Shown: piece by piece, positions 3,544 through 61,777 of the stretch
How positions within the stretch are numbered: position 1 is the first letter of the stretch
How the letters are laid out: the number at the start of each line of letters is the position of its first letter
Assembly (NCBI GenBank): GCA_016865035.1
Contig: CP018227.1
Span: 3,067,501 to 3,131,500, forward strand
DNA: 64,000 nt
Reading direction: 5' to 3'
Origin: Kordiimonadales bacterium IMCC3096
GTDB lineage: Bacteria > Pseudomonadota > Alphaproteobacteria > Minwuiales > Minwuiaceae
Made by a program: the position numbers and the translations under genes
Notes under the pieces: generated by a model
Databases searched by the model: none
The model's input: the letters and a program-made list of their open reading frames with translations, nothing else
Told to the model about the DNA's origin: nothing

Positions 3544-4383
3544 ATGAACCTTTCGGAAGTGCTCTATGACCGCAACGGTGCGGTTGCCACCATCACGCTC
3601 AACCGCCCGGACCAGCTCAATGCCTGGACCCGGAAGATGGAGGGGGAGGTGCGCGAGGCCATGATGGAGGCGTCGAACGATGATGCCGTGCGCGCCATCG
3701 TGCTGACCGGCGCCGGTCGCGGATTCTGCGCCGGGGCGGACATGAACCTGCTGGGCGACATCCAGGACGAGGCCGCCTCGGCGAAGTCCCGCATCCAGTC
3801 GCTCAGCGCGGTGAACAATGCCATTCCGGGCGGGCTGGACCTGCCGACGGACTATACCATGCGCTACAGCTATTTCCCGACGGTGCCGAAGCCGGTGCTG
3901 GGCGCGATCAACGGCCCCTGTGCCGGGCTGGGCATGGTCATGGCGCTCTATTGCGACATGCGTTTCGCCTCCGACGCGGCCGTCTTCACCACCGCCTTTT
4001 CCCGCCGTGGCCTGATCGCGGAGCATGGCATTTCCTGGATGCTGCCGATGCTGGTGGGCCATGCCAATGCGCTGGACCTGCTGCTGTCGGGGCGGAAGTT
4101 CGGGGCGGCCGAGGCGCATTCGATGGGGCTGGTCAACCGGGTGATCGAGATGAAGGACTTCGCCGACCAGTGCCATGCCTATGCCGATGAACTGGCCACC
4201 ATGGTCTCGCCACGCTCCATCCGGGTGATGAAGTCGCAGGTCTACAAGGCCATGCTGCAGTCGCTGGAACACGCCACCCTGACGGCGAATTCGGAGATGC
4301 CGGGCAGCTTCGACTCGGAGGATTTCAAGGAGGGTGTGGCGCATTTCATTGAACGCCGCGCCCCGGCATTCAGCGGCAGGTAG
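3544..4383 (+). CDS. Crotonase-family enoyl-CoA hydratase/isomerase
   Basis: Soluble acyl-CoA enzyme of 279 residues. Oxyanion-hole segments are GRGFCAGADM (59-68) and AINGPCAGLG (121-130). Both catalytic glutamates of enoyl-CoA hydratase are replaced (Val and Phe at the aligned positions). Glu160 in LIAEHGISW occupies the glutamate position of ECI2-type isomerases, so double-bond isomerisation is plausible. The ATG follows a purine-rich ribosome site ending three bases upstream (GGGGAGGGG). The open frame extends far upstream, but that part is antisense to the epoxide hydrolase. It resembles the crotonase at the left window edge and may be a diverged paralogue. Confidence 0.88.
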   Translation: MNLSEVLYDRNGAVATITLNRPDQLNAWTRKMEGEVREAMMEASNDDAVRAIVLTGAGRGFCAGADMNLLGDIQDEAASAKSRIQSLSAVNNAIPGGLDLPTDYTMRYSYFPTVPKPVLGAINGPCAGLGMVMALYCDMRFASDAAVFTTAFSRRGLIAEHGISWMLPMLVGHANALDLLLSGRKFGAAEAHSMGLVNRVIEMKDFADQCHAYADELATMVSPRSIRVMKSQVYKAMLQSLEHATLTANSEMPGSFDSEDFKEGVAHFIERRAPAFSGR

Positions 4384-4396
4384 CGGAGTCGTCTTC

Positions 4397-4480
4397 GGCC
4401 TGTTCCATCCCTCTCCCCACCCGGCCACCCGATAAGGATACTCCCGTGGGTGGCCGGGTGGGGAGAGGATGGAACAGGCC
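4397..4480. repeat. Long near-perfect inverted repeat (33/34 bp arms)
   Basis: Left arm 4397-4430 and right arm 4448-4480 are complementary over 33 pairs with a single extra C in the left arm, around a 17-base loop. The arms are C/G-rich (CCCCACCCGGCCACCC on the left). It starts 14 bases after the crotonase stop and ends 35 bases before the agmatinase start. No T-run follows. It may be a transcription barrier or a copy of a dispersed palindromic intergenic repeat. Confidence 0.9.
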
Positions 4481-4515
4481 ACGTGACAAGAGCAGCAGAT
4501 TGGAGACCGGGTGAG

Positions 4516-5541
4516 ATGGATCAGGAAAACCTGAAGCGGCTGCGCGCCCGGTACGGCGATACCGAACCCGGCACCACCTACGACGAACGCTATCGTGCCA
4601 TCACGGATTCACAGTTCGAGGATGGCGGGCGACGCCATGCGCCCTTCGCCGGTATTCCGACCTTCCTCGGTGCCCCTGCGGTCGAGGGGCTGGAGGGGCT
4701 GGACATCGCGCTGATCGGGGTGCCCATGGATCTGGGTGTCACCAACCGCCCCGGTGCCCGCTTCGGGCCGCGCGCGCTGCGCACGATCGAGCGGATCGGC
4801 CCCTGGCACCATATCCTGGCCCGCGCGCCGTTCCTGGAGGCAAAGGTCGGGGACGTCGGCGACGTGCCGTTCCGCAGCCGCTTCAGCCTCGACATGGCGA
4901 TGGAGGATATCGAGGCCTATTACGGCACCGTCCGTGATGCCGGTGTGCGGCCCCTGTCGGTGGGCGGGGACCATTCCATCACCTACCCGATCATGAAGGC
5001 GCTGGGGCGCGACCGCCCGCTGGGCATGATCCACATCGACGCCCATTGCGACACGGGCGGGGAGTTCGACCACAGCAAGTTCCATCATGGCGGCCCGTTC
5101 CGCATGGCGGTGCTTGACGGCGTGCTGGACCCGGAACGCTGCATCCAGATCGGCATTCGCGGCGCGTCCGAATATATCTGGGAGTTCTCGCAGGATGCCG
5201 GCATGACCGTCTTCCACATCGAGAAGGTGATGGAGCAGGGCATTCCGGCGGTGATCGAGGCGGCACGGCAGGTCGTCGGTGACGGCCCGGTCTATGTCAC
5301 CTTCGACATCGACGGCATCGACCCGGGCTTCGCCCCCGGCACCGGCACGCCGGAGGTCGGCGGCCTGACCCCGCGGGAGGTGCAGCAGATCTTCCGCGGC
5401 CTCGACGGGCTGGACATCGTCGGTGGCGACGTGGTGGAGGTGGCCCCGCAATATGATGCGACCACCAATACGGCGCAGGTCGGCGGTCAGATGCTGTTCG
5501 AGATACTGACGGTCATGACCGGGTCGGGTGCCGCCGGATAG
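4516..5541 (+). CDS. speB: Agmatinase-type ureohydrolase
   Basis: Metal-dependent ureohydrolase of 341 residues that removes urea from agmatine or a related guanidino compound. Metal ligands are visible in order: GGDHS (His153), DAHCD (Asp175-Asp179) and DIDGID (Asp264, Asp266). The signature TGTPEVGG follows. Start 4516 was chosen because GGAG sits ten bases upstream; the frame stays open back into the inverted repeat at 4397-4480, which is unlikely to be coding. Guanidinobutyrase or guanidinopropionase activity cannot be excluded, since these share the same core. No other polyamine gene is adjacent, so the physiological substrate is an inference. Confidence 0.87.
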   Translation: MDQENLKRLRARYGDTEPGTTYDERYRAITDSQFEDGGRRHAPFAGIPTFLGAPAVEGLEGLDIALIGVPMDLGVTNRPGARFGPRALRTIERIGPWHHILARAPFLEAKVGDVGDVPFRSRFSLDMAMEDIEAYYGTVRDAGVRPLSVGGDHSITYPIMKALGRDRPLGMIHIDAHCDTGGEFDHSKFHHGGPFRMAVLDGVLDPERCIQIGIRGASEYIWEFSQDAGMTVFHIEKVMEQGIPAVIEAARQVVGDGPVYVTFDIDGIDPGFAPGTGTPEVGGLTPREVQQIFRGLDGLDIVGGDVVEVAPQYDATTNTAQVGGQMLFEILTVMTGSGAAG

Positions 5542-13215: not shown

Positions 13216-13428
13216 GTAAGGTCGATCCTGCGTGACGGTTCCGTCTGACCTACAAGGGAAGGGCGGATGAGAAAAGGGAACACGGTTCGGCGTACCCATC
13301 AGGGACCAAGTCCGTGGCTGCCCCCGCAACTGTATGCGTCGAGGATGTTCGAACATGCCACTGGCCCCGATTGGCCGGGAAGGCCGGACAGCCGCCCAAG
13401 ACGTGAGCCAGGAAACCTGCCGCCCGCA
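13216..13428 (+). ncRNA. Cobalamin (B12) riboswitch
   Basis: Leader RNA on the plus strand before cbtB. Conserved cobalamin aptamer segments occur in order: GGGAACACGGT near 13278, GGCTGCCCCCGCAACTGTA around 13317-13335, GCCACTG followed by GGGAAGGC (about 13356-13385), and the B12 box AGCCAGGAAACCTGCC at 13406-13421. Adenosylcobalamin binding is expected to reduce expression of cbtB-cbtA-cobW-cobN-cobO. The outer boundaries are approximate. The rest of the 381-base divergent gap (13098-13215) shows no further structure I can support. Confidence 0.95.
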
Positions 13429-13478
13429 AGTTTGAAACCCGCTATGGTCGCCGGCGGGGCGACAGGGAGAACAAGACG

Positions 13479-48888: not shown

Positions 48889-49049
48889 CTTCCGTCTCCC
48901 GTGCAGGTTTCTTTGCTTATTTCTTTTTTCAATCGTCCCGCCGCCGCCGGGTTTACGCAAGGGCAATCTGTGCGGGATCGGGTCCGGGGCGGGCTTTGCT
49001 GTTGTGTCGATTCCTTCTGGCCCGTACATTGACGGCGTCCGATTGAACC

Positions 49050-49255
49050 CAGCGGGAGAGATCAGTCCGGTATCCGGTGACGGATGCGGGACGGACGCCG
49101 AAGGAGCAACCGCCCCGGAAACTCTCAGGCAAACGGACCGTTGGGTGACGGCACTCTGGAAAGCGGAGCAGGTCTGCGGATCTGTTCTCACCGAAGGGGT
49201 ACGACCGGCGGCAGCCGTGCCGGTCCAGTCTCTCAGGTCCCACGACAGAGGGGGC
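49050..49255 (+). ncRNA. Tandem glycine riboswitch (two aptamers)
   Basis: Two consecutive glycine aptamers precede gcvT. The first has GGGAGAG (49054-49060), GCCGAAGGAGCAA (49097 on) and ACTCTCAGG (49121-49129), closed near 49164 by CACTCTGGAAAGC. The second begins about 49165 and contains CACCGAAGGGGTA (49189 on), then TCTCTCAGG (to about 49238) and GACAGAGG. Cooperative glycine binding is expected to turn on the glycine cleavage genes. The rest of the 429-base gap (48889-49049) shows no feature I can support. Confidence 0.95.
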
Positions 49256-54688: not shown

Positions 54689-55165
54689 ATGTCGGACGAT
54701 ATTCTCAGTCTCTTGGAGGCCTACTGGCGAAGCAAGTGCCAGGACGGGCGGCTTCCGTCGCGGCAGGATATCGATCCTGCCGAGATCAGACGGCTGCTGG
54801 CGCATATCGCATTGATTGATGTCGCGATGGACGGAGACGGCTTCCGTTTCCGTCTCGTCGGAACCAAGGTCGTGCAGCAATTGTCCTATGACCCAACCGG
54901 TCAGGATGTGACCGAAGGGCCGGGCACGGGCAAGGGATCGCCGTTCTGGGATTTCCTGACGGCAATTGCCACGGACCTGAAGCCGGGCTCGATCGAGCTT
55001 CCCTACTTCGGCAACAATGTCTCGTTCGGCAGTATCCGGATCGTCGGCTTTCCGCTGCTCACTGACGGCGTGATCGACAAGGTCCTGCTGGGCTTCAGCT
55101 TTGCCGGTGCAACGGAGATGCATGAGCTCAAACGCTGGATTAGACAGTCAAAAAATGTAATATAA
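54689..55165 (+). CDS. PAS domain-containing protein (PAS_5 type)
   Basis: Single-domain protein of 158 residues typical of alphaproteobacterial PAS_5 proteins: N-terminal LLEAYWRSKCQDGRLPSRQDIDPAEIRRLLAHIALIDVAMDGDGFRFRLVGT, then TGQDVTEGPGTGKGSPFWDF. It lacks kinase, cyclase or receiver domains. It may bind a small ligand and act through a partner. GGGGGAG precedes the ATG, and a sigma-54-like site lies upstream. The gene ends in AT-rich sequence, and its last bases overlap a candidate promoter for the sulfur operon. Confidence 0.82.
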   Translation: MSDDILSLLEAYWRSKCQDGRLPSRQDIDPAEIRRLLAHIALIDVAMDGDGFRFRLVGTKVVQQLSYDPTGQDVTEGPGTGKGSPFWDFLTAIATDLKPGSIELPYFGNNVSFGSIRIVGFPLLTDGVIDKVLLGFSFAGATEMHELKRWIRQSKNVI

Positions 55166-55168
55166 AAT
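55141..55168 (+). promoter_or_regulatory. Candidate sigma-70 promoter for sulfur operon
   Basis: TAGACA (55141-55146) and TAAAAT (55163-55168), separated by 16 bases, lie in an unusually AT-rich stretch overlapping the PAS stop. Predicted start near 55176 leaves a 320-base leader before cysG. A second weaker option is TTGACT at 55196-55201. Neither is proven. Confidence 0.4.
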
Positions 55169-55320
55169 ATATACCGTGAAAGGAAGATATTTATATTGAC
55201 TTACGTGTCATGAGGATGAAATCATTCTCATGCGAACAACGGCACGTAAATATTCCGGTCTTACAGCATCACCTGATGGGAATGCGCTGACCGCCACGGA
55301 CTGGCCCACCGATCCGACGG
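55166..55320. other. AT-rich leader segment with an inverted repeat
   Basis: This part of the 333-base gap before cysG is locally AT-rich in an otherwise GC-rich genome, particularly 55150-55195. It contains a 24-base imperfect palindrome at 55209-55232 (halves CATGAGGATGAA and ATCATTCTCATG), a possible operator. The plus-strand frame at 55230-55496 (88 codons) shows no homology or codon pattern I recognise and probably does not code. Confidence 0.5.
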
Positions 55321-55373
55321 GCCCGCGGAATTTGATCGGGCAGCTTGCACCCGCGTTACCAAATGCTAAAGCG
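55321..55373 (+). ncRNA. SAM-II (SAM-alpha) riboswitch candidate
   Basis: The RNA reads as the SAM-II pattern: P1 CGCGG (55324-55328) pairs CCGCG (55351-55355); the loop contains AATTTGATC and GCTTGCA; the 3' segment is TTACC then AAATGCTAAAGC (55361-55372). Within the loop GCTT (55343-55346) can pair with AAGC (55369-55372) as a pseudoknot. SAM-II is known upstream of methionine genes in alphaproteobacteria. Here it leads a sulfur operon ending in metZ. High SAM should lower expression. No covariance search was run. Confidence 0.75.
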
Positions 55374-55416
55374 CCACGGAGCGAACTCCGTGGGCCCTTT
55401 CGAGGCACGGAGTTCG
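55374..55416 (+). promoter_or_regulatory. Mutually exclusive hairpins after SAM-II aptamer
   Basis: Hairpin A pairs CCACGGAG (55374-55381) with CTCCGTGG (55386-55393) over a CGAA loop, then CCCTTTC. Hairpin B pairs CGAACTCCGTG (55382-55392) with CACGGAGTTCG (55406-55416), 11 perfect pairs. They share the same strand segment, so only one can form. This looks like an attenuator directly 3' of the aptamer, with A as a weak terminator. Confidence 0.55.
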
Positions 55417-55498
55417 GGACAATGATCCCAGGAAATTCAGTCACGTTCGATGCCATGCAGTGGTGCCGGCTCCATCCTGTACGGGGAGGGGCCTGACC

Positions 55499-56899
55499 AT
55501 GCAGGCGTTTCCGATCTTCCTGAAACTCAGGGATCGCAAGGCCCTGCTGGTTGGCGGCGGCGACGCGGCGGCGGCAAAGCTGCGGCTGCTGATTGCGGCG
55601 CATTCGAACGTTCGCGTTGTGTCGCGTGACGCAGATGACTGCGTGCGCGACCTTGTCGATGGCAACCAGGTCACCCTGATCGAGACCGAATTCGATGCGT
55701 CTCACCTGACCGGCATCGCGGTGGCGATCGTCGCCACGGAGGACGAGGCCGAGGATGCCCGTGTCGCCGCCGCCGCCCGTGCGGCGCACGTGACGGTGAA
55801 TGTCGTTGACCGTCCGGCCCTGTCCGATTTCACCATGCCTGCGATCGTCGACCGTGACCCGGTGACCGTTGCCATATCGACTGGCGGCGCGGCACCTGTG
55901 CTTGCCCGCCAGGTGCGCGGTGCGGTGGAGGCGGCCTTGCCGGCACAGCTCGGTGCGCTGGCAGGCTTCATGGACAGTTTTCGCAGCGCGGTGGCAGCCA
56001 TCCGCCATACACCGAAGGCGCGCCGCAAATTCTGGGAGGGTTTCCTGTCCGGTCCGGTCGCCCGCAAGGTGCTGGATGGCAATGCAGGTTCCGCCCGGCA
56101 GGACATGCTCGCACTGGTCAATCAGGGCGAAGTCACGGATCCGGTCGGTCGGGTGGCCCTCGTTGGCGCAGGACCGGGCGACCCCGAACTGCTGACACTG
56201 AAGGCGCACCGGCTGCTCAAGCAGGCAGACGTGATCGTGCATGACAAGCTGGTGGGGGAGGGGGTTCTGGACCTCGCGCGCCGTGACGCCCGGCTGGTCT
56301 ATGTCGGCAAGTCTCGTGGTCACCACCATCGCACCCAGCAACAGATCAACGACATTCTGGTCGCGGAAGCGGCGGCCGGGCATCTGGTCGTGCGCCTGAA
56401 GGGGGGCGACCCCTTCGTCTTCGGGCGCGGTGGGGAAGAGGTCGCGCATCTGCGCGCGCACGGCATCGAGGTCGAGGTGGTGCCCGGCATCACCGCGGCA
56501 GCCGGTTGTGCCGCCTCCGCAGGCTTCCCGCTGACCCATCGCGGCAAGGCCAGCGCGGTGACCTTCCTGTCCGGTCAGGGCAAGGACGGCAGACCGGATC
56601 TGGACTGGCGGGCGCTGGGACAGGCGAACCATACACTCGCCATCTACATGGGCATCGATACGGCCCGCACCTCCGCCCGCGAACTGATCGCGCATGGCCG
56701 CGATCCGGGAACCCCCGTGGCGGTGATCGAGAACGGGACCCTGCCGACCCAGCGCGTGCTGCGCGGTCGGCTGGACCAGCTGCCCGATCTGGTGGAGCGG
56801 GAGGCGGTGGTGACCCCGGCACTGCTGATCATCGGCGAGGTGACCGGCGAGACAATTGACGCCGCGGCGGTTCAGGACCGCCTGGCGCTGGCACTCTGA
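55499..56899 (+). CDS. cysG: Siroheme synthase CysG
   Basis: Multifunctional enzyme of 466 residues making siroheme from uroporphyrinogen III for sulfite reductase. The N-terminal half is the precorrin-2 dehydrogenase/ferrochelatase part (KALLVGGGDAAAAKLRLLI, ISTGGAAPVLARQVR). The C-terminal half is the SAM-dependent uroporphyrinogen methyltransferase (GAGPGDPELLTLKAHRLL, KGGDPFVFGRGGEEV, VPGITAAAGCAASAGFPLTHR). Start 55499 follows GGGGAGGGG. First gene of the sulfur operon. Confidence 0.96.
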   Translation: MQAFPIFLKLRDRKALLVGGGDAAAAKLRLLIAAHSNVRVVSRDADDCVRDLVDGNQVTLIETEFDASHLTGIAVAIVATEDEAEDARVAAAARAAHVTVNVVDRPALSDFTMPAIVDRDPVTVAISTGGAAPVLARQVRGAVEAALPAQLGALAGFMDSFRSAVAAIRHTPKARRKFWEGFLSGPVARKVLDGNAGSARQDMLALVNQGEVTDPVGRVALVGAGPGDPELLTLKAHRLLKQADVIVHDKLVGEGVLDLARRDARLVYVGKSRGHHHRTQQQINDILVAEAAAGHLVVRLKGGDPFVFGRGGEEVAHLRAHGIEVEVVPGITAAAGCAASAGFPLTHRGKASAVTFLSGQGKDGRPDLDWRALGQANHTLAIYMGIDTARTSARELIAHGRDPGTPVAVIENGTLPTQRVLRGRLDQLPDLVEREAVVTPALLIIGEVTGETIDAAAVQDRLALAL

Positions 56900-56918: not shown

Positions 56919-57206
56919 ATGGCACTCGAAATCATCACGGCGAACCGGCTCGGCGACGGTCTGGTGATCTTTCTGACGACAGACGGCTGGTCGGCGCGGA
57001 TCGGGGATGCGGTCGTATCGGAGAGCAGGGACGAGACGGCGGCGCTGCTGGCGCGGGCGGAAGCGGACGCGGGTCTCGTGGTCGGTCCCTACGAGATCAC
57101 GGTGGAACGGCAGGCGGATGGCAGCCTCCACCCGGTGAAATATCGCGAAACCCTGCGGACGCGTGGACCATCGGTTCGTACCGACCTTGGATATCAGGCT
57201 GCCTGA
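56919..57206 (+). CDS. DUF2849 domain protein in sulfur operon
   Basis: Small protein of 95 residues. Its N-terminus MALEIITANRLGDGLVIFLTTDGWSARIGDAVV and the conserved VVGPYEITVERQADGSLHPVKYRETLRTRGPS identify DUF2849, which in alphaproteobacteria usually sits between cysG and cysI. No catalytic motif is visible. It starts 19 bases after cysG and ends 24 bases before cysI, so it is embedded in the operon. A helper role for sulfite reductase (folding, cofactor loading or electron entry) is an inference from position alone. Confidence 0.85.
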   Translation: MALEIITANRLGDGLVIFLTTDGWSARIGDAVVSESRDETAALLARAEADAGLVVGPYEITVERQADGSLHPVKYRETLRTRGPSVRTDLGYQAA

Positions 57207-57230: not shown

Positions 57231-58886
57231 ATGTATGTCTATGACGAGCTTGATCGCGGCCTGGTGAATGAACGGGTCGAGGAATTCCGGGACCAGGTCA
57301 GTCGCCGCATTTCCGGCGAACTGACGGAGGAGCAGTTCCGGCCCCTGCGCCTGATGAACGGCCTGTATCTGCAACTGCACGCCTACATGCTGCGTGTCGC
57401 GGTGCCCTACGGTGTACTGTCCAGCACCCAGATGCGGAAGCTGGCGCGGATCGCGCGGGTCTATGATCGCGGCTACGGCCATTTCACCACCCGCCAGAAC
57501 ATCCAGTTCAACTGGCCGAAGCTGGAAGAGACGCCGGACATCCTGGCCGAGCTGGCCGAGGTCGAGATGCATGCCATCCAGACCTCCGGCAACTGCATCC
57601 GCAACACCACAGCCGACCAGTTCGCGGGGGCAGCAGCGGACGAGCTGGAAGATCCGCGCATCTGGTGCGAGATCATCCGCCAGTGGTCCACGTTCCACCC
57701 GGAATTCACCTTCCTGCCGCGCAAGTTCAAGATCGCGGTGACCGGTGCCGTCAGTGACCGCGCCGCGATCAAGGTACACGACATCGGCATCGTGCTGGTG
57801 CAGGGCGCGGACGGGGAAGTCGGCTTCGAGATCTGGGCCGGTGGCGGTCTGGGGCGCACGCCGATGATCGCGAAGAAGATCCGCGAATTCCTGCTGGCCG
57901 CCGACCTGCTGAGCTATCTGGAGGCCATGCTGCGGGTCTACAACCGCTTCGGTCGGCGCGACAACAAGTACAAGGCACGCATCAAGATCCTGGTGCACGA
58001 GATCGGTGCCGACGCCTATCGCGATGCGGTCGAGGCGGAATGGGCGGATATCCGCGATGGCGCTCTGGCACTGCCGGCGCAGGAGATCAGCCGTATCCGC
58101 AAAGCCTTCACACCGCCTGCCTTCGAGGTGCTGGATGCAGTCTCCACCGCCTTCGAGGCGCGCAAGTTCGAGGATCGCGGCTTCGCCCGCTGGGTGGCCA
58201 GCAATGTCCGCCGCCACAAGGTGGCGGGATATGCCATCGCCAACATCTCCCTGAAGCCCGCAGGCGGCATTCCGGGCGACGCGACGGCGGAGCAGATGGA
58301 TGCCGTTGCCGAATATGCCGACCGCTGGTCGTTCGGCGAGGTGCGGGTGGCGCATGAGCAGAACCTGGTGCTGCCGCATGTCCGCCAGGACGACCTCTAC
58401 GACCTCTGGCTGGCGCTGGGGTCGGTGGAACTGGATGCCCCGAACATCGGCACGCTGGGCGACATCATCGCCTGCCCGGGCATGGACTACTGCAGCCTCG
58501 CCACTGCGCGCTCCATCCCCGTGGCGCAGCAGATTTCGGAGCGGTTCGCCGATCTGGAGCGGCTGCATGACATTGGCTCGATCAGCCTGAACATCTCCGG
58601 CTGCATCAATGCCTGCGGGCATCACCACGTCGGCAATATCGGCATCCTCGGCGTCGACAAGAAGGGTGAGGAATTCTACCAGATCACCCTGGGCGGTCAG
58701 GCCGACGAGAATGCGGCAATCGGCAGGATCATTGGTCCCGGCTTCGCCTCCGACGCGATCGTCGATGCCATCGAAACCATCATCGAAACCTATCTGTCGG
58801 TGCGCCAGGACGGCGAGAGCTTCATCGCAACCCTGAACCGCCTCGGCCAGACCCCTTTCAAGGAGGCTCTCTATGGCACTGCTTAA
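57231..58886 (+). CDS. cysI: Nitrite/sulfite reductase haemoprotein subunit
   Basis: Siroheme and [4Fe-4S] enzyme of 551 residues that reduces sulfite to sulfide with six electrons. The cluster/siroheme ligands are C415-x5-C421 (CPGMDYC) and C458-x3-C462 (CINAC). The two ferredoxin-like halves include ISLNISGCINACGHHHVGNIG and GHFTTRQNIQFNWPKLEETPDIL. No flavoprotein (cysJ) is present in the operon, so electrons probably come from ferredoxin. Nitrite reduction cannot be excluded by sequence, but the cysH/cysG/metZ context favours sulfite. Confidence 0.92.
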   Translation: MYVYDELDRGLVNERVEEFRDQVSRRISGELTEEQFRPLRLMNGLYLQLHAYMLRVAVPYGVLSSTQMRKLARIARVYDRGYGHFTTRQNIQFNWPKLEETPDILAELAEVEMHAIQTSGNCIRNTTADQFAGAAADELEDPRIWCEIIRQWSTFHPEFTFLPRKFKIAVTGAVSDRAAIKVHDIGIVLVQGADGEVGFEIWAGGGLGRTPMIAKKIREFLLAADLLSYLEAMLRVYNRFGRRDNKYKARIKILVHEIGADAYRDAVEAEWADIRDGALALPAQEISRIRKAFTPPAFEVLDAVSTAFEARKFEDRGFARWVASNVRRHKVAGYAIANISLKPAGGIPGDATAEQMDAVAEYADRWSFGEVRVAHEQNLVLPHVRQDDLYDLWLALGSVELDAPNIGTLGDIIACPGMDYCSLATARSIPVAQQISERFADLERLHDIGSISLNISGCINACGHHHVGNIGILGVDKKGEEFYQITLGGQADENAAIGRIIGPGFASDAIVDAIETIIETYLSVRQDGESFIATLNRLGQTPFKEALYGTA

Positions 58887-59382
58887 GAACGGGCGACTGA
58901 TCCAGGACCGCTGGACCACCGTCGACACCCTGACCGATGCCCTGAAACCCGGCGGCGTGCTTGTCCCGCTGGACCTCTGGCTGGCGGAGCGCGATACCCT
59001 GCGCGGCAAGAGTGCGGTGGGTGTCATCCTGCCGAACGACGCCGATCCGGACCTGCTGGCGGATGACGATGACCGCATCGCGGCCATCGTCCTGACCTTT
59101 CCGTCGATGGTGGATGGGCGGGCCTTCTCCCAGGCGCGCCTGATCCGCGAACGCTTCGGCTTCGATGGGGAAATCCGCGCCCGTGGGCCGGTGATCGCCG
59201 ACCAGTACCTGTATCTGCTGCGCTGCGGCGTCGATGCCGTGGAAGTGCCGGACGACACCAATGTCGAGAGCTGGCTGCGCAATGCACGGCGGTTCTCCAC
59301 CGTCTATCAACCCGCCGCCGATGATCGCGTCCCGGCCTATCGCCGCCGCCATCTGGTGGCGGCTTCGGCCATCGCCTCCTGA
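58873..59382 (+). CDS. DUF934 family protein, sulfite reductase-associated
   Basis: Protein of 169 residues of the DUF934 family, commonly paired with CysI in alpha- and betaproteobacteria. N-terminal LLKNGRLIQDRWTTVD leads to PLDLWLAERDTLRGKSAVGV, IAAIVLTFPSMVDGRAFSQARLIRERFGFDGEIRARGPVIADQYLYLLRCG and VEVPDDTNVESWLRNARRFSTVYQ. It starts 14 bases inside the end of cysI with AAGGAGG, indicating coupled translation. A partner or assembly role with sulfite reductase is likely, but the mechanism is unknown. Confidence 0.88.
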   Translation: MALLKNGRLIQDRWTTVDTLTDALKPGGVLVPLDLWLAERDTLRGKSAVGVILPNDADPDLLADDDDRIAAIVLTFPSMVDGRAFSQARLIRERFGFDGEIRARGPVIADQYLYLLRCGVDAVEVPDDTNVESWLRNARRFSTVYQPAADDRVPAYRRRHLVAASAIAS

Positions 59383-59394
59383 GGAGCCGCCGAC

Positions 59395-60141
59395 ATGTCG
59401 CTTCAGACCCGCCAGCCCTTTCCCGATATCGAACGGCTGATCCGTTCCTCGAACCGCGCGTTCGAGCTGAATCGGACCTGTGGCGAAATGCAGGGGATGG
59501 ACCTGATCGCCGCGGCGCGGGACGCGTTCGGTGACAGGCTGACGCTGGTGTCCTCCTTCGGGACCGAAGCAGCGGTTCTGCTGCATATGGTGGCGGAGGT
59601 CGATCCGTCGATCACGGTCACCTTCGTCGATACGCGCAGGCTGTTCGGTGAGACCCTGCGCTATCGCGACCAGCTCGCATCGCGTCTGGGGCTGATGGAC
59701 GTGCGCACGGTCGCGCCCGATCCGCGTCGTGTGAAGCAGCTTGATGCGGACCAGATGCTGTTCGACCGCGACACGAACCTGTGCTGTCACATCCGGAAGG
59801 TGGAGCCGCTGGAGCGCGCCCTGAACGGCTTCGACGCCTGGATCACGGGCCGCAAGGCCTATCAGGCGGAAACCCGGCGCTACCTGCCTGCGGTGGAGGC
59901 TGTCGGCGGGCGTGTGAAGTTCAATCCGCTGGCCCGCTTCACACCCGAGCGGATCAATGACTGGTTCAGGCATCACAATTTGCCGCGTCATCCGCTGGAA
60001 GCTGACGGTTTTCTTTCCGTTGGCTGTATGCCATGCACCGACAGGGTCAGGCCGGGCGAGGATCCCAGATCCGGGCGCTGGCGGGGACAGGACAAGACAG
60101 AATGCGGCATCCATGAAGGTGTCGCAGGTGACGGTATCTGA
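59395..60141 (+). CDS. cysH: Adenosine 5'-phosphosulfate reductase (assimilatory)
   Basis: Reductase of 248 residues that converts APS to sulfite with thioredoxin. It carries the iron-sulfur motif CC (Cys130-131) and CxxC (Cys211-214) required by APS-specific enzymes, and the catalytic cysteine in ECGIH (Cys237). The substrate-loop SSFGTEAAVLLH is typical. Direct use of APS means no cysC kinase is required for assimilation. It starts 12 bases after the DUF934 gene. Confidence 0.94.
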   Translation: MSLQTRQPFPDIERLIRSSNRAFELNRTCGEMQGMDLIAAARDAFGDRLTLVSSFGTEAAVLLHMVAEVDPSITVTFVDTRRLFGETLRYRDQLASRLGLMDVRTVAPDPRRVKQLDADQMLFDRDTNLCCHIRKVEPLERALNGFDAWITGRKAYQAETRRYLPAVEAVGGRVKFNPLARFTPERINDWFRHHNLPRHPLEADGFLSVGCMPCTDRVRPGEDPRSGRWRGQDKTECGIHEGVAGDGI

Positions 60142-60155
60142 GGGGCATCAAGGAT

Positions 60156-60578
60156 ATGACTGAAGGATATGCGGGCGATCGCAGCCCGGCGGACACCTAC
60201 GCCGCGTTGAAGACTGAGCCGGGAGCGGTTCTGGTGGATGTGCGCACCGTGCCGGAGTGGCAGTTTGTCGGCGTGCCGGATCTGGCGCCGGTGTCGAAGG
60301 AAGCGCTGTTCGTCGAATGGCAGGCCTATCCGGAGATGAAGGTCAACGAAGGCTTCGTTGCCGCCGTCGAGGCGAAGGGTGTGTCGAAGGACCAGCCGGT
60401 CTACCTGCTCTGTCGCTCGGGTGTGCGCTCGAAGGCTGCCGCGAAGGCGCTGACGGCCGCTGGTTTCCAGGCCTGCTACAACATTCTGGAAGGCTTCGAG
60501 GGGAATGCGGACAGTGATGGCCATCGCGGCAATGTCGGCGGCTGGAAGCATGCGGGACTGCCCTGGAGGCAGCAGTGA
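60156..60578 (+). CDS. Rhodanese-like sulfurtransferase in sulfur operon
   Basis: Single-domain rhodanese of 140 residues. The active-site loop is CRSGVRS with Cys86, preceded by the CDC25-like DVRTVPEWQFVGVPDLA. A six-residue loop fits transfer of sulfane sulfur. It lies between cysH and metZ with four-base overlap at its stop (GTGA), so it probably handles sulfide, thiosulfate or persulfide in the same pathway, but the donor and acceptor are unknown. Confidence 0.85.
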   Translation: MTEGYAGDRSPADTYAALKTEPGAVLVDVRTVPEWQFVGVPDLAPVSKEALFVEWQAYPEMKVNEGFVAAVEAKGVSKDQPVYLLCRSGVRSKAAAKALTAAGFQACYNILEGFEGNADSDGHRGNVGGWKHAGLPWRQQ

Positions 60579-61777
60579 CACGAGACGTCGCCGATGCGGC
60601 GGCGCAGTGGGAGCTGGAGACCCGGCTGGTGCGGGGCGGTCTGGACCGCTCGGCCAACGGCGAGACGAGTGAGGCGCTGTTCCTGAACTCCGGCTTCGTC
60701 TACGAGACGGCGGCGGATGCGGAGGCGCGCTTCAAGGGGGAACAGGACGGCTTCGTCTATTCCCGCTACGGCAATCCCACCGTCGCGATGTTCGAGGAAC
60801 GGATGCGGCTGATGGAGGGGGCGGAGGCCTGCTTCGCCACCGGCTCCGGCATGTCCGCGGTCTTCGCCGCTCTGATGTCGCAGCTGAAGACAGGTGACCG
60901 AGTGGTGGCTTCCCGCGCCCTGTTCGGCAGCTGTCACCACATCCTGACCCAGATCCTGCCGCGCTTCGGAATCGAGAGTGTGCTGGTGGAGGGGACGGAC
61001 CTCGACGCATGGGCCGACGCGCTGAAACCCGGCGCGGCGGTGGTCTTTCTGGAGACACCGGCCAATCCCACGCTCGACCTGATCGACCTGCGTGCCGTGT
61101 CCGATCTGGCCCATGCGGCCGGCGCGCGGGTGGTGGTGGACAACGTGTTTGCCACCCCTGTGCTGCAGCGCCCGATGGACCATGGTGTCGATATCGTCGT
61201 CTATTCGGCGACCAAGCACATCGACGGGCAGGGACGCGTGCTGGGTGGCGCCGTGCTCGGCAGCAGGGATTTCGTCGACAATTCCCTGATGCCGTTCCTG
61301 CGCCATACCGGCCCGGCCCTCAGTCCGTTCAATGCCTGGGTGCTGCTGAAGGGGCTGGAGACGCTGACGCTCCGCGTGGAGCGCATGTGCGGAAATGCAG
61401 CGAAGGTGGCGGCGCACCTGTCGGCTCAGCCCGGTGTTTCACGGGTGATCTGGCCCGGTGCGGATGATTTCCCGCAGCGGGAACTGCGCGAACGTCAGAT
61501 GACTGCTGGCGGCACCCTGATCACGCTGGAGATCGCTGGCGGCAAGCAGGGCGCGTTCCGCTTCATGGACCGTCTGCGGATCATCGACATCTCCAACAAC
61601 CTTGGCGATTCCAAGAGCCTGGTGACCCACCCGACCACCACGACGCACCGCGCCATTTCCGCGGAGGACCGCGCCCGGATCGGCATCAGCGAAGGCATGT
61701 TGCGCCTGTCGGTCGGGCTGGAGAATCCGGAAGACCTGAAGGCTGATATTTCACAGGCGCTTGCCGGCGGGGACTGA
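60575..61777 (+). CDS. metZ: O-succinylhomoserine sulfhydrylase
   Basis: PLP enzyme of 400 residues of the Cys/Met metabolism family that adds sulfide to O-succinylhomoserine, giving homocysteine directly. The PLP lysine is Lys214 in SATKHIDGQG. The segments YSRYGNPT, GSGMSAVFAAL and LGDSKSLVTHPTTTTH are typical. It starts with GTG overlapping the rhodanese stop. It consumes the sulfide produced by cysI, so the operon runs from siroheme and APS to homocysteine. O-acetylhomoserine use is possible. Confidence 0.93.
   Translation: MTRDVADAAAQWELETRLVRGGLDRSANGETSEALFLNSGFVYETAADAEARFKGEQDGFVYSRYGNPTVAMFEERMRLMEGAEACFATGSGMSAVFAALMSQLKTGDRVVASRALFGSCHHILTQILPRFGIESVLVEGTDLDAWADALKPGAAVVFLETPANPTLDLIDLRAVSDLAHAAGARVVVDNVFATPVLQRPMDHGVDIVVYSATKHIDGQGRVLGGAVLGSRDFVDNSLMPFLRHTGPALSPFNAWVLLKGLETLTLRVERMCGNAAKVAAHLSAQPGVSRVIWPGADDFPQRELRERQMTAGGTLITLEIAGGKQGAFRFMDRLRIIDISNNLGDSKSLVTHPTTTTHRAISAEDRARIGISEGMLRLSVGLENPEDLKADISQALAGGD

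Follow-up and report, generated by a model that had tools for sequence, protein, structure and literature searches.

Results

The operon and its leader

The window, the whole stretch of 64,000 nucleotides of Kordiimonadales bacterium IMCC3096 analysed here, contains seven consecutive genes leading from siroheme synthase (cysG) to metZ (Table 1), an arrangement that agrees with the seven-gene operon described in the initial annotation. The intergenic gaps from cysG to metZ measure 19, 24, −14, 12, 14 and −4 nt, the largest being 24 nt and two being gene overlaps; because of this spacing the genes likely form one operon, and metZ, which overlaps the preceding gene by 4 nt, has no room for a leader of its own, as had also been claimed. 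The start codons of cysG and the DUF2849 gene were chosen by us. No NCBIfam model scored above its cut-off for the product of the cysI-like gene, and CysH scored above the cut-off of the general reductase model and below that of the APS model. Searching the genome for cysD returned one match under the family cut-off (G000:C1:1764786-1765388). The window also holds a cobalamin riboswitch at 13219-13438 (110 bits) and tandem glycine aptamers at 49043-49252 (66.6 and 34.7 bits). Genes that by eye read like a glycine-cleavage system begin shortly behind the glycine aptamers.

Table 1. Positions, in window coordinates, of the leader elements and of the genes behind them
Feature	Position	Strand	Basis or remark
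Promoter-like site TTGACT-18-AATCAT	55196..55225	+	9/12 consensus
P1, 5' strand (CGCGG)	55324..55328	+	pairs with 55351-55355; RF00521 alignment
L1 and 5' strand of P2 pseudoknot	55331..55348	+	RF00521 alignment
P1, 3' strand (CCGCG)	55351..55355	+	RF00521 alignment; 5 bp in the window
P2, 3' strand: GCTA 55365-55368, GCC 55373-55375 (outer P2)	55365..55375	+	RF00521 alignment
H1 hairpin CCACGGAG-CGAA-CTCCGTGG, proposed ON state	55374..55393	+	8 bp perfect, −13.3 kcal/mol
H2, proposed OFF state	55382..55416	+	11 bp perfect, −19.2 kcal/mol
GCCC after H1, proposed SAM-free pairing partner	55394..55397	+	complementary to L1 GGGC 55338-55341
uORF, 24 codons (MIPGNSVTFDAMQWCRLHPVRGGA)	55422..55496	+	stop 2 nt before cysG
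cysG, siroheme synthase	55499..56899	+	NF007922, 571 bits (cut-off 400)
DUF2849 protein	56919..57206	+	PF11011
Sulfite/nitrite reductase haemoprotein (cysI-like)	57231..58886	+	PF01077, PF03460
DUF934 protein	58873..59382	+	PF06073
cysH, (phospho)adenylyl-sulfate reductase	59395..60141	+	NF002537, 270 bits (cut-off 154)
Rhodanese-like protein	60156..60578	+	PF00581
metZ, O-succinylhomoserine sulfhydrylase	60575..61777	+	TIGR01325, 565 bits (cut-off 510)

Upstream of cysG, at 55321-55373, the initial annotation had placed a SAM-II-like riboswitch with a P1 stem, a TTTGA...GCTTGCA loop and the 3' segment AAATGCTAAAG, all of which were found in those places. The top covariance match in 55150-55550 was RF00521 (SAM_alpha), which aligned over its full model length to 55315-55389 on the plus strand with 31.7 bits and an E-value of 1.8e-5. 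The score fell 4.3 bits short of the gathering cut-off of 36, and the Rfam listing of the whole window at gathering thresholds, which contains one cobalamin and two glycine aptamers, lacks the element. RF01726 (SAM-II long loop) reached 22.8 bits (E 0.041) in the same region, where two miRNA models gave the only other matches and the SAM-V and SAM-SAH models gave none at E ≤ 10. The RF00521 cut-off is exceeded in relatives that resemble the window element in architecture and in the type of gene behind it, with 38.1 bits before a cysG (L057) and 36.9 bits before a cysH (L050). Across the whole genome, for which 150 of 462 first-look candidates were scored, just two RF00521 matches had E < 1, namely one of 47.4 bits (E 2.3e-9) at G000:C1:3306969-3307046, 75 nt upstream of a metY match (621.6 bits, above cut-off), and the window element (E 4.5e-5 on this scale); the next match had 15 bits and an E-value of 1.46. 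The genome carries a canonical SAM-II element before metY plus a sub-threshold one before the cys operon.

In the RF00521 alignment the window leader contains the SAM-II core UUUGA ... UUGC ... GCUAAAG. The stretch 55331-55348 comprises TTTGA, the GGC of outer P2 (55339-55341) and AGCTTGC, whose TTGC (55345-55348) belongs to inner P2; the P2 partners follow what we take to be the usual SAM-II numbering. Outer P2 has 3 bp here, and the last two bases of its GCC strand are the first two of hairpin H1. The element runs past the end first given for it, 55373, with hairpin and alternative pairing extending to 55416. The covariance score, the conservation described below for the seven genomes of the genus and compensatory changes elsewhere support the proposal of a SAM-II-type aptamer before the cysG operon. 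Judged by its sequence, the leader is a real SAM-II-type element of a hairpin-tailed variant and a candidate SAM binder.

Alternative pairings and upstream signals

Two hairpins behind the aptamer exclude each other, the 3' arm of H1 being common to both. The alternative helix H2 joins CGAACTCCGTG (55382-55392) with CACGGAGTTCG (55406-55416) and would mask the Shine-Dalgarno sequence GGAG (55409-55412), which precedes the ATG of a short upstream open reading frame (uORF) by 9 nt. GGGC in L1 (55338-55341) likewise has two possible partners, the outer P2 strand or the GCCC behind H1. The place of the uORF is kept in 7/7 genomes of the genus and its amino acid sequence is not; in the window it encodes one Cys.

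The lowest-energy single-sequence fold of the leader (−45.9 kcal/mol) contains neither P1 nor H1. It has instead 11 bp between the 5' flank plus P1 strand (GGGCCCGCGGA) and the H1 3' arm, with a z-score of −2.09 and 8 of 200 shuffles as good. Forcing H1 raised the energy to −40.7 kcal/mol and forcing H2 to −34.9 kcal/mol, H2 being the least favoured state in this energy model, which is one without pseudoknots. We rejected the anti-P1 pairing of the flank as a general mechanism, given that it lacks class-wide covariation and 656 of 3000 shuffles were as good; it is possibly an extra of the genus only.

Two promoter-like sites were found, one per strand, against 0.4 expected, and TTGACTT is present in 7/7 genomes of the genus; we infer a transcript start near 55231. 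A near-palindrome, ATGAGGATGAAATCATTCTCAT, seen by eye, lies over the −10 region at 55210-55231 and related dyads occupy the same place in relatives; a repeat search did not report it, and it is a possible transcription-factor operator. In each of the seven genus genomes TTGACTT is followed by an ATG, always 34 nt from the first base of the motif, from which 88-113 codons stay open through the aptamer (55230-55496 in the window). This frame is in phase with the uORF and stops 2-10 nt before cysG, and length changes preserve it. We do not claim it as a protein-coding gene, as it shows no third-position bias and a second frame is also open in two of the genomes (G003 and G006); it may be a leaderless frame across the riboswitch or a stop-poor stretch that arose by chance.

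Conservation in the genus and in relatives

A DNA search detected the leader in 11 of 41 genomes (its own and those of relatives), comprising all seven of the genus, which is probably Minwuia, and four others. The element precedes cysG in 7/7 genus genomes, and in six of them the genes from cysG to metZ keep their order; in the seventh (G005) the contig stops inside cysG. Beyond the genus, cysG is the gene behind the element in Nisaea sp. HXMU1428-11 (L057), T. litoreum (L170), T. fulvum (L171) and a metagenome-assembled genome (MAG; L173 = L060), and in another MAG (L169 = L104) the element precedes a shorter, methyltransferase-only gene of cysG/cobA type followed by DUF2849 and cysI. A cysH gene follows the element in T. 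litoreum (L105), N. nitritireducens (L075), Nisaea sp. HXMU1428-11 (L096) and a MAG (L174 = L050). Overall, cysG or cysH leaders with the same element occur in Nisaea, Thalassobaculum and three MAGs. In N. nitritireducens, the leader of cysG (L172) gave no match to the variant pattern. By these sequence matches, the link to sulfur-entry genes recurs in other Alphaproteobacteria and is no peculiarity of the window operon.

A hairpin-tailed variant across Alphaproteobacteria

The leaders of the variant share CAGCTTGC-N-GCTAAAGCGCCAC plus a CCAC...GTGG hairpin (H1). This exact pattern occurs in at least 119 stretches of GTDB contigs, among which 80 loci (L048-L127) were analysed; their titles are alphaproteobacterial except for two 'Proteobacteria' bins, one 'bacterium' bin and one MAG labelled Actinomycetota. 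Within the class, 59 of 387 genomes and 33 of 264 genera contain the pattern, and a reversed control pattern gave 0 matches in the same 387 genomes. An Rfam scan at gathering thresholds of 18 loci that we chose from the 80 recovered RF00521 in 2. Standard RNA annotation often misses the variant, and a covariance model built for it could recover many of the missed members. One genome (G352) holds five copies (contigs C92 and C116:87082-96440), four of them within 9.4 kb. Elsewhere, two tandem SAM-II aptamers precede metY (L045 of G036, around 4270-4520 on the plus strand), the first followed, as judged by eye, by a hairpin resembling a terminator and a run of T, and the second being the hairpin-tailed variant.

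We compared 89 leaders: that of the window, those of the 80 loci and 8 more from further genomes. A P1 of 5 bp is possible in all 89, with C-G, G-C and T-A exchanges that are mostly register shifts. TTTGA is likewise present in 89/89, TTGC and GCTAAAG being fixed by the search pattern; inner P2 is invariant through that pattern and hence offers no countable covariation. Outer P2 of the variant has 2-3 bp, the first pair forming in all 86 leaders (the pattern fixes it), the second in 80 and the third in 36, and reads GGC/GCC where by eye the canonical member L047 has GCC/GGC, an exchange that does not hold against all canonical members.

H1 was found at 77 of the 80 loci by a lax rule, and its stem reaches at least 7 bp in 68 of 80; among the other CCAC sites of these loci, 38 of 2520 have such a stem. 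The pattern and our script fix the outer four pairs of H1, pair 5 is G-C in 85/86, and pairs 6 and 7 exchange among A-T, G-C, G-T, C-G and T-G. The L1 bases before AGCTTGC match those after H1, as GGGC/GCCC, GGAGC/GCTCC or GAGC/GCTC. The mean complementary run was 2.91, compared to 2.18 ± 0.09 in 2000 shuffles, the best of which gave 2.49 (n = 86), and after deduplication 2.64 compared to 1.91 ± 0.10 (0/5000 shuffles, n = 64); the pairing is missing in 28 of 86 leaders.

H2, in which the Shine-Dalgarno region of the first frame pairs with the loop and 3' arm of H1, was evaluated on non-overlapping strands in 73 of the 86 leaders that have H1; in the remaining 13 no frame satisfied the start rule. 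Its mean energy was −13.6 kcal/mol, compared to −11.6 ± 0.26 kcal/mol when shuffled (0/5000), −12.8 ± 0.21 when shuffled within groups of like post-H1 sequence (0/5000), and, deduplicated, −13.3 compared to −11.6 ± 0.30 (0/5000, n = 57). The shuffles of both tests hold composition, not relatedness. When each locus was compared with a stretch lying 40 nt downstream of its start codon, H2 was the stronger pairing in only 43 of 73 (means −13.6 and −12.1).

Targets of the variant

Targets were taken as the first recognised gene, with a small protein or OsmC, rhodanese or DUF2849 permitted ahead of it and with reading frames trimmed to begin behind H1; labels came from similarity to window proteins and to representatives identified by Pfam or NCBIfam, the metN representative lying below its NCBIfam cut-off. 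Behind the 80 loci we found methionine uptake genes (metN-type ATPase, metI, metQ) at 21, of which 15 have metI or metQ; metZ or metY at 13; a sulfonate-type binding protein, permease, monooxygenase or FMN reductase at 10; cysG or cysH at 8; hemB at 2; a small protein of unknown function alone at 16; and nothing recognised at 10, three of these with less than 400 nt left. The arrangement osmC-metZ is among the targets.

The small protein (about 60-100 aa, motif IEV..AGIVV) lies within the first two genes at 35 of 80 loci, for example L098:499-696 and L113:1145-1360 (minus strand). Pfam gave no match in the three members scanned, and NCBIfam gave only two stray matches among 15 members (E 0.003 and 0.006, in one member each). 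Its predicted structure has three strands and two helices (pLDDT 91) and found no PDB match at E ≤ 0.001.

Published SAM-II targets, cited here and below from the openly accessible text of each paper, are metY, metA, metX, metC, hom and metW (PMC4239095), metA and other methionine or SAM biosynthesis genes (PMC1273637), and metA and metZ (PMC9373788). In Pelagibacter, SAM-II precedes bhmT and metX, and SAM-V precedes osmC, bhmT, metY and mmuM (PMC5069961); SAM-Alpha motifs were counted in PMC3766115, whose accessible text does not list sulfur-acquisition targets. In the openly searchable literature we found no description of SAM-II before sulfate- or sulfonate-assimilation genes, and the regulon of the variant is wider than described there.

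Cys-rich leader peptides

At 48 loci the first frame behind the element has 6-45 codons. It encodes at least two Cys in 38, CC in 25 and CR in 37 of these, compared to 16%, 3% and 10% of 911 Shine-Dalgarno-bearing frames elsewhere in the same loci. Cys-rich first frames occur at 35 of 40 loci in the group with methionine uptake, sulfonate or small-protein targets (and hemB), at 1 of 2 with metZ or metY, at 2 of 3 unassigned loci and at 0 of 3 with cys operons. Frame ends resembling CCR or CCCRR, 20-40 nt behind H1, were seen at L061, L066, L103, L114, L117, L119, L122-L124, L127 and others. These compositions suggest that, in members of the variant other than that of the window, the SAM switch is followed by a cysteine-sensing layer, a candidate attenuator.

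Discussion

The leader 55319-55416 seems on balance likely to be a translational OFF riboswitch, in which a SAM-II-type aptamer would act on the operon via the uORF. Without SAM, L1 GGGC would pair with the GCCC behind H1, H1 would be closed and the Shine-Dalgarno sequence of the uORF open; ribosomes would translate the uORF and continue to cysG, 2 nt past its stop, and then through the operon. With SAM, L1 would enter the P2 pseudoknot with GCTAAAGCGCC, which claims the first two bases of H1, and the freed 3' arm of H1 would form 11 bp with the Shine-Dalgarno region, turning off uORF and operon. We infer this assignment of pairings to states because the GCC of outer P2 overlaps H1 and L1 GGGC has the alternative partner GCCC; SAM as the ligand, coupling between uORF and cysG, and repression as the direction of control are presumed along with it. 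SAM would then jointly restrain the making of siroheme, the reduction of APS and sulfite and the synthesis of homocysteine, and such joint repression of sulfur entry and homocysteine formation, as originally suggested for this operon, is the most likely reading. Most SAM-II switches are transcriptional with long outer helices, and the translational minority has an outer helix of 2 bp in the solved case (PMC6061858); by analogy, the short outer P2 of the variant fits control of translation. A SAM-II switch that controls translation at a distance is known (PMC9373788).

The complementarity between L1 and the bases after H1 could also be read in the opposite sense, as an extended outer P2 that forms with SAM around an inserted H1 and leaves the Shine-Dalgarno sequence open, making the leader an ON switch. 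L1 nucleotide 14, G or A, does covary with C or T after H1 (G-C in 34 and A-T in 28 of 86 leaders), which looks like the true outer P2 of many members. We nevertheless find this wiring unlikely, as SAM would be expected to repress rather than induce sulfur acquisition, the canonical partner GCC stands at its normal place and SAM-II elements are described as OFF switches (PMC9373788, PMC1273637, PMC6061858). A SAM-II switch that works through transcription termination or RNA stability instead of the Shine-Dalgarno sequence seems quite improbable: 55150-55520 holds no terminator-like site and H1 is followed by GCCCTTTCGAGG, which has no long T run, although many known SAM-II members have putative terminators (PMC1273637) and S. 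meliloti mRNAs are stabilised under high SAM (PMC9373788).

The low Rfam scores (2 of 18 scanned loci above cut-off) and the targets beyond methionine synthesis would also suit an aptamer that now binds a different sulfur metabolite, such as SAH or a precursor of cysteine; a change of ligand of this kind would account for the breadth of the sulfur regulon. To this reading we give little credence, since TTTGA is universal among the compared leaders, the TTGC and GCTAAAG core, though fixed by the pattern, is SAM-II-like, and the variant also precedes metZ, metY and metNIQ. That the element is a chance resemblance in a GC-rich leader, as a score below the gathering cut-off might suggest, is scarcely credible and is refuted by its presence in seven genus genomes and by the 59 class genomes with zero control matches. 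A translational OFF switch responding to SAM is thus the reading we prefer.

Tentatively, and with slightly more doubt than confidence, we propose that this hairpin-tailed translational subclass of SAM-II constitutes an RNA-based alphaproteobacterial regulon for sulfur acquisition (sulfate reduction, sulfonate use, methionine uptake and homocysteine synthesis), and that in many operons it is placed in series with a Cys-rich leader peptide, such a leader reading SAM and cysteine supply together. If true, the mRNAs of sulfur entry by way of sulfate, sulfonates and methionine uptake would sense SAM directly in many Alphaproteobacteria, and an alternating hairpin would couple a small aptamer to translation. 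In mycobacteria, a Cys-rich short reading frame lies in the leader of sulfur genes, and these cysteine-responsive polycysteine leader peptides share with the variant a Cys-rich short frame before sulfur genes; the frames of the variant differ in lying behind a SAM-II aptamer, in members other than that of the window.

In the readable papers SAM-II is a switch of methionine-pathway genes. With SAM-II as modelled in RF00521 and RF01726, the window leader has in common P1, the TTTGA of L1, the TTGC and GCTAAAG core and a position before a homocysteine-forming operon. It departs from RF00521 in scoring below the cut-off, in an outer P2 of 2-3 bp with GGC/GCC where some canonical members have GCC/GGC, in the H1 directly behind, in the terminator that was not found, and in targets of sulfate reduction. 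The S. meliloti metA element also controls an upstream Shine-Dalgarno sequence with initiation at a distance, but there that sequence is part of the P2 region and is followed by a terminator (PMC9373788), whereas in the window it lies 33 nt downstream of the final base of P2 and would be hidden in an alternative helix. None of the SAM-V models matches the window leader at E ≤ 10, and the Shine-Dalgarno sequence of SAM-V lies inside its short helix (PMC6061858, PMC5069961); the two nevertheless share a short outer P2 and, as proposed here for the variant, control of translation, and SAM-V precedes osmC and metY in Pelagibacter (PMC5069961) much as the targets of the variant include osmC-metZ.
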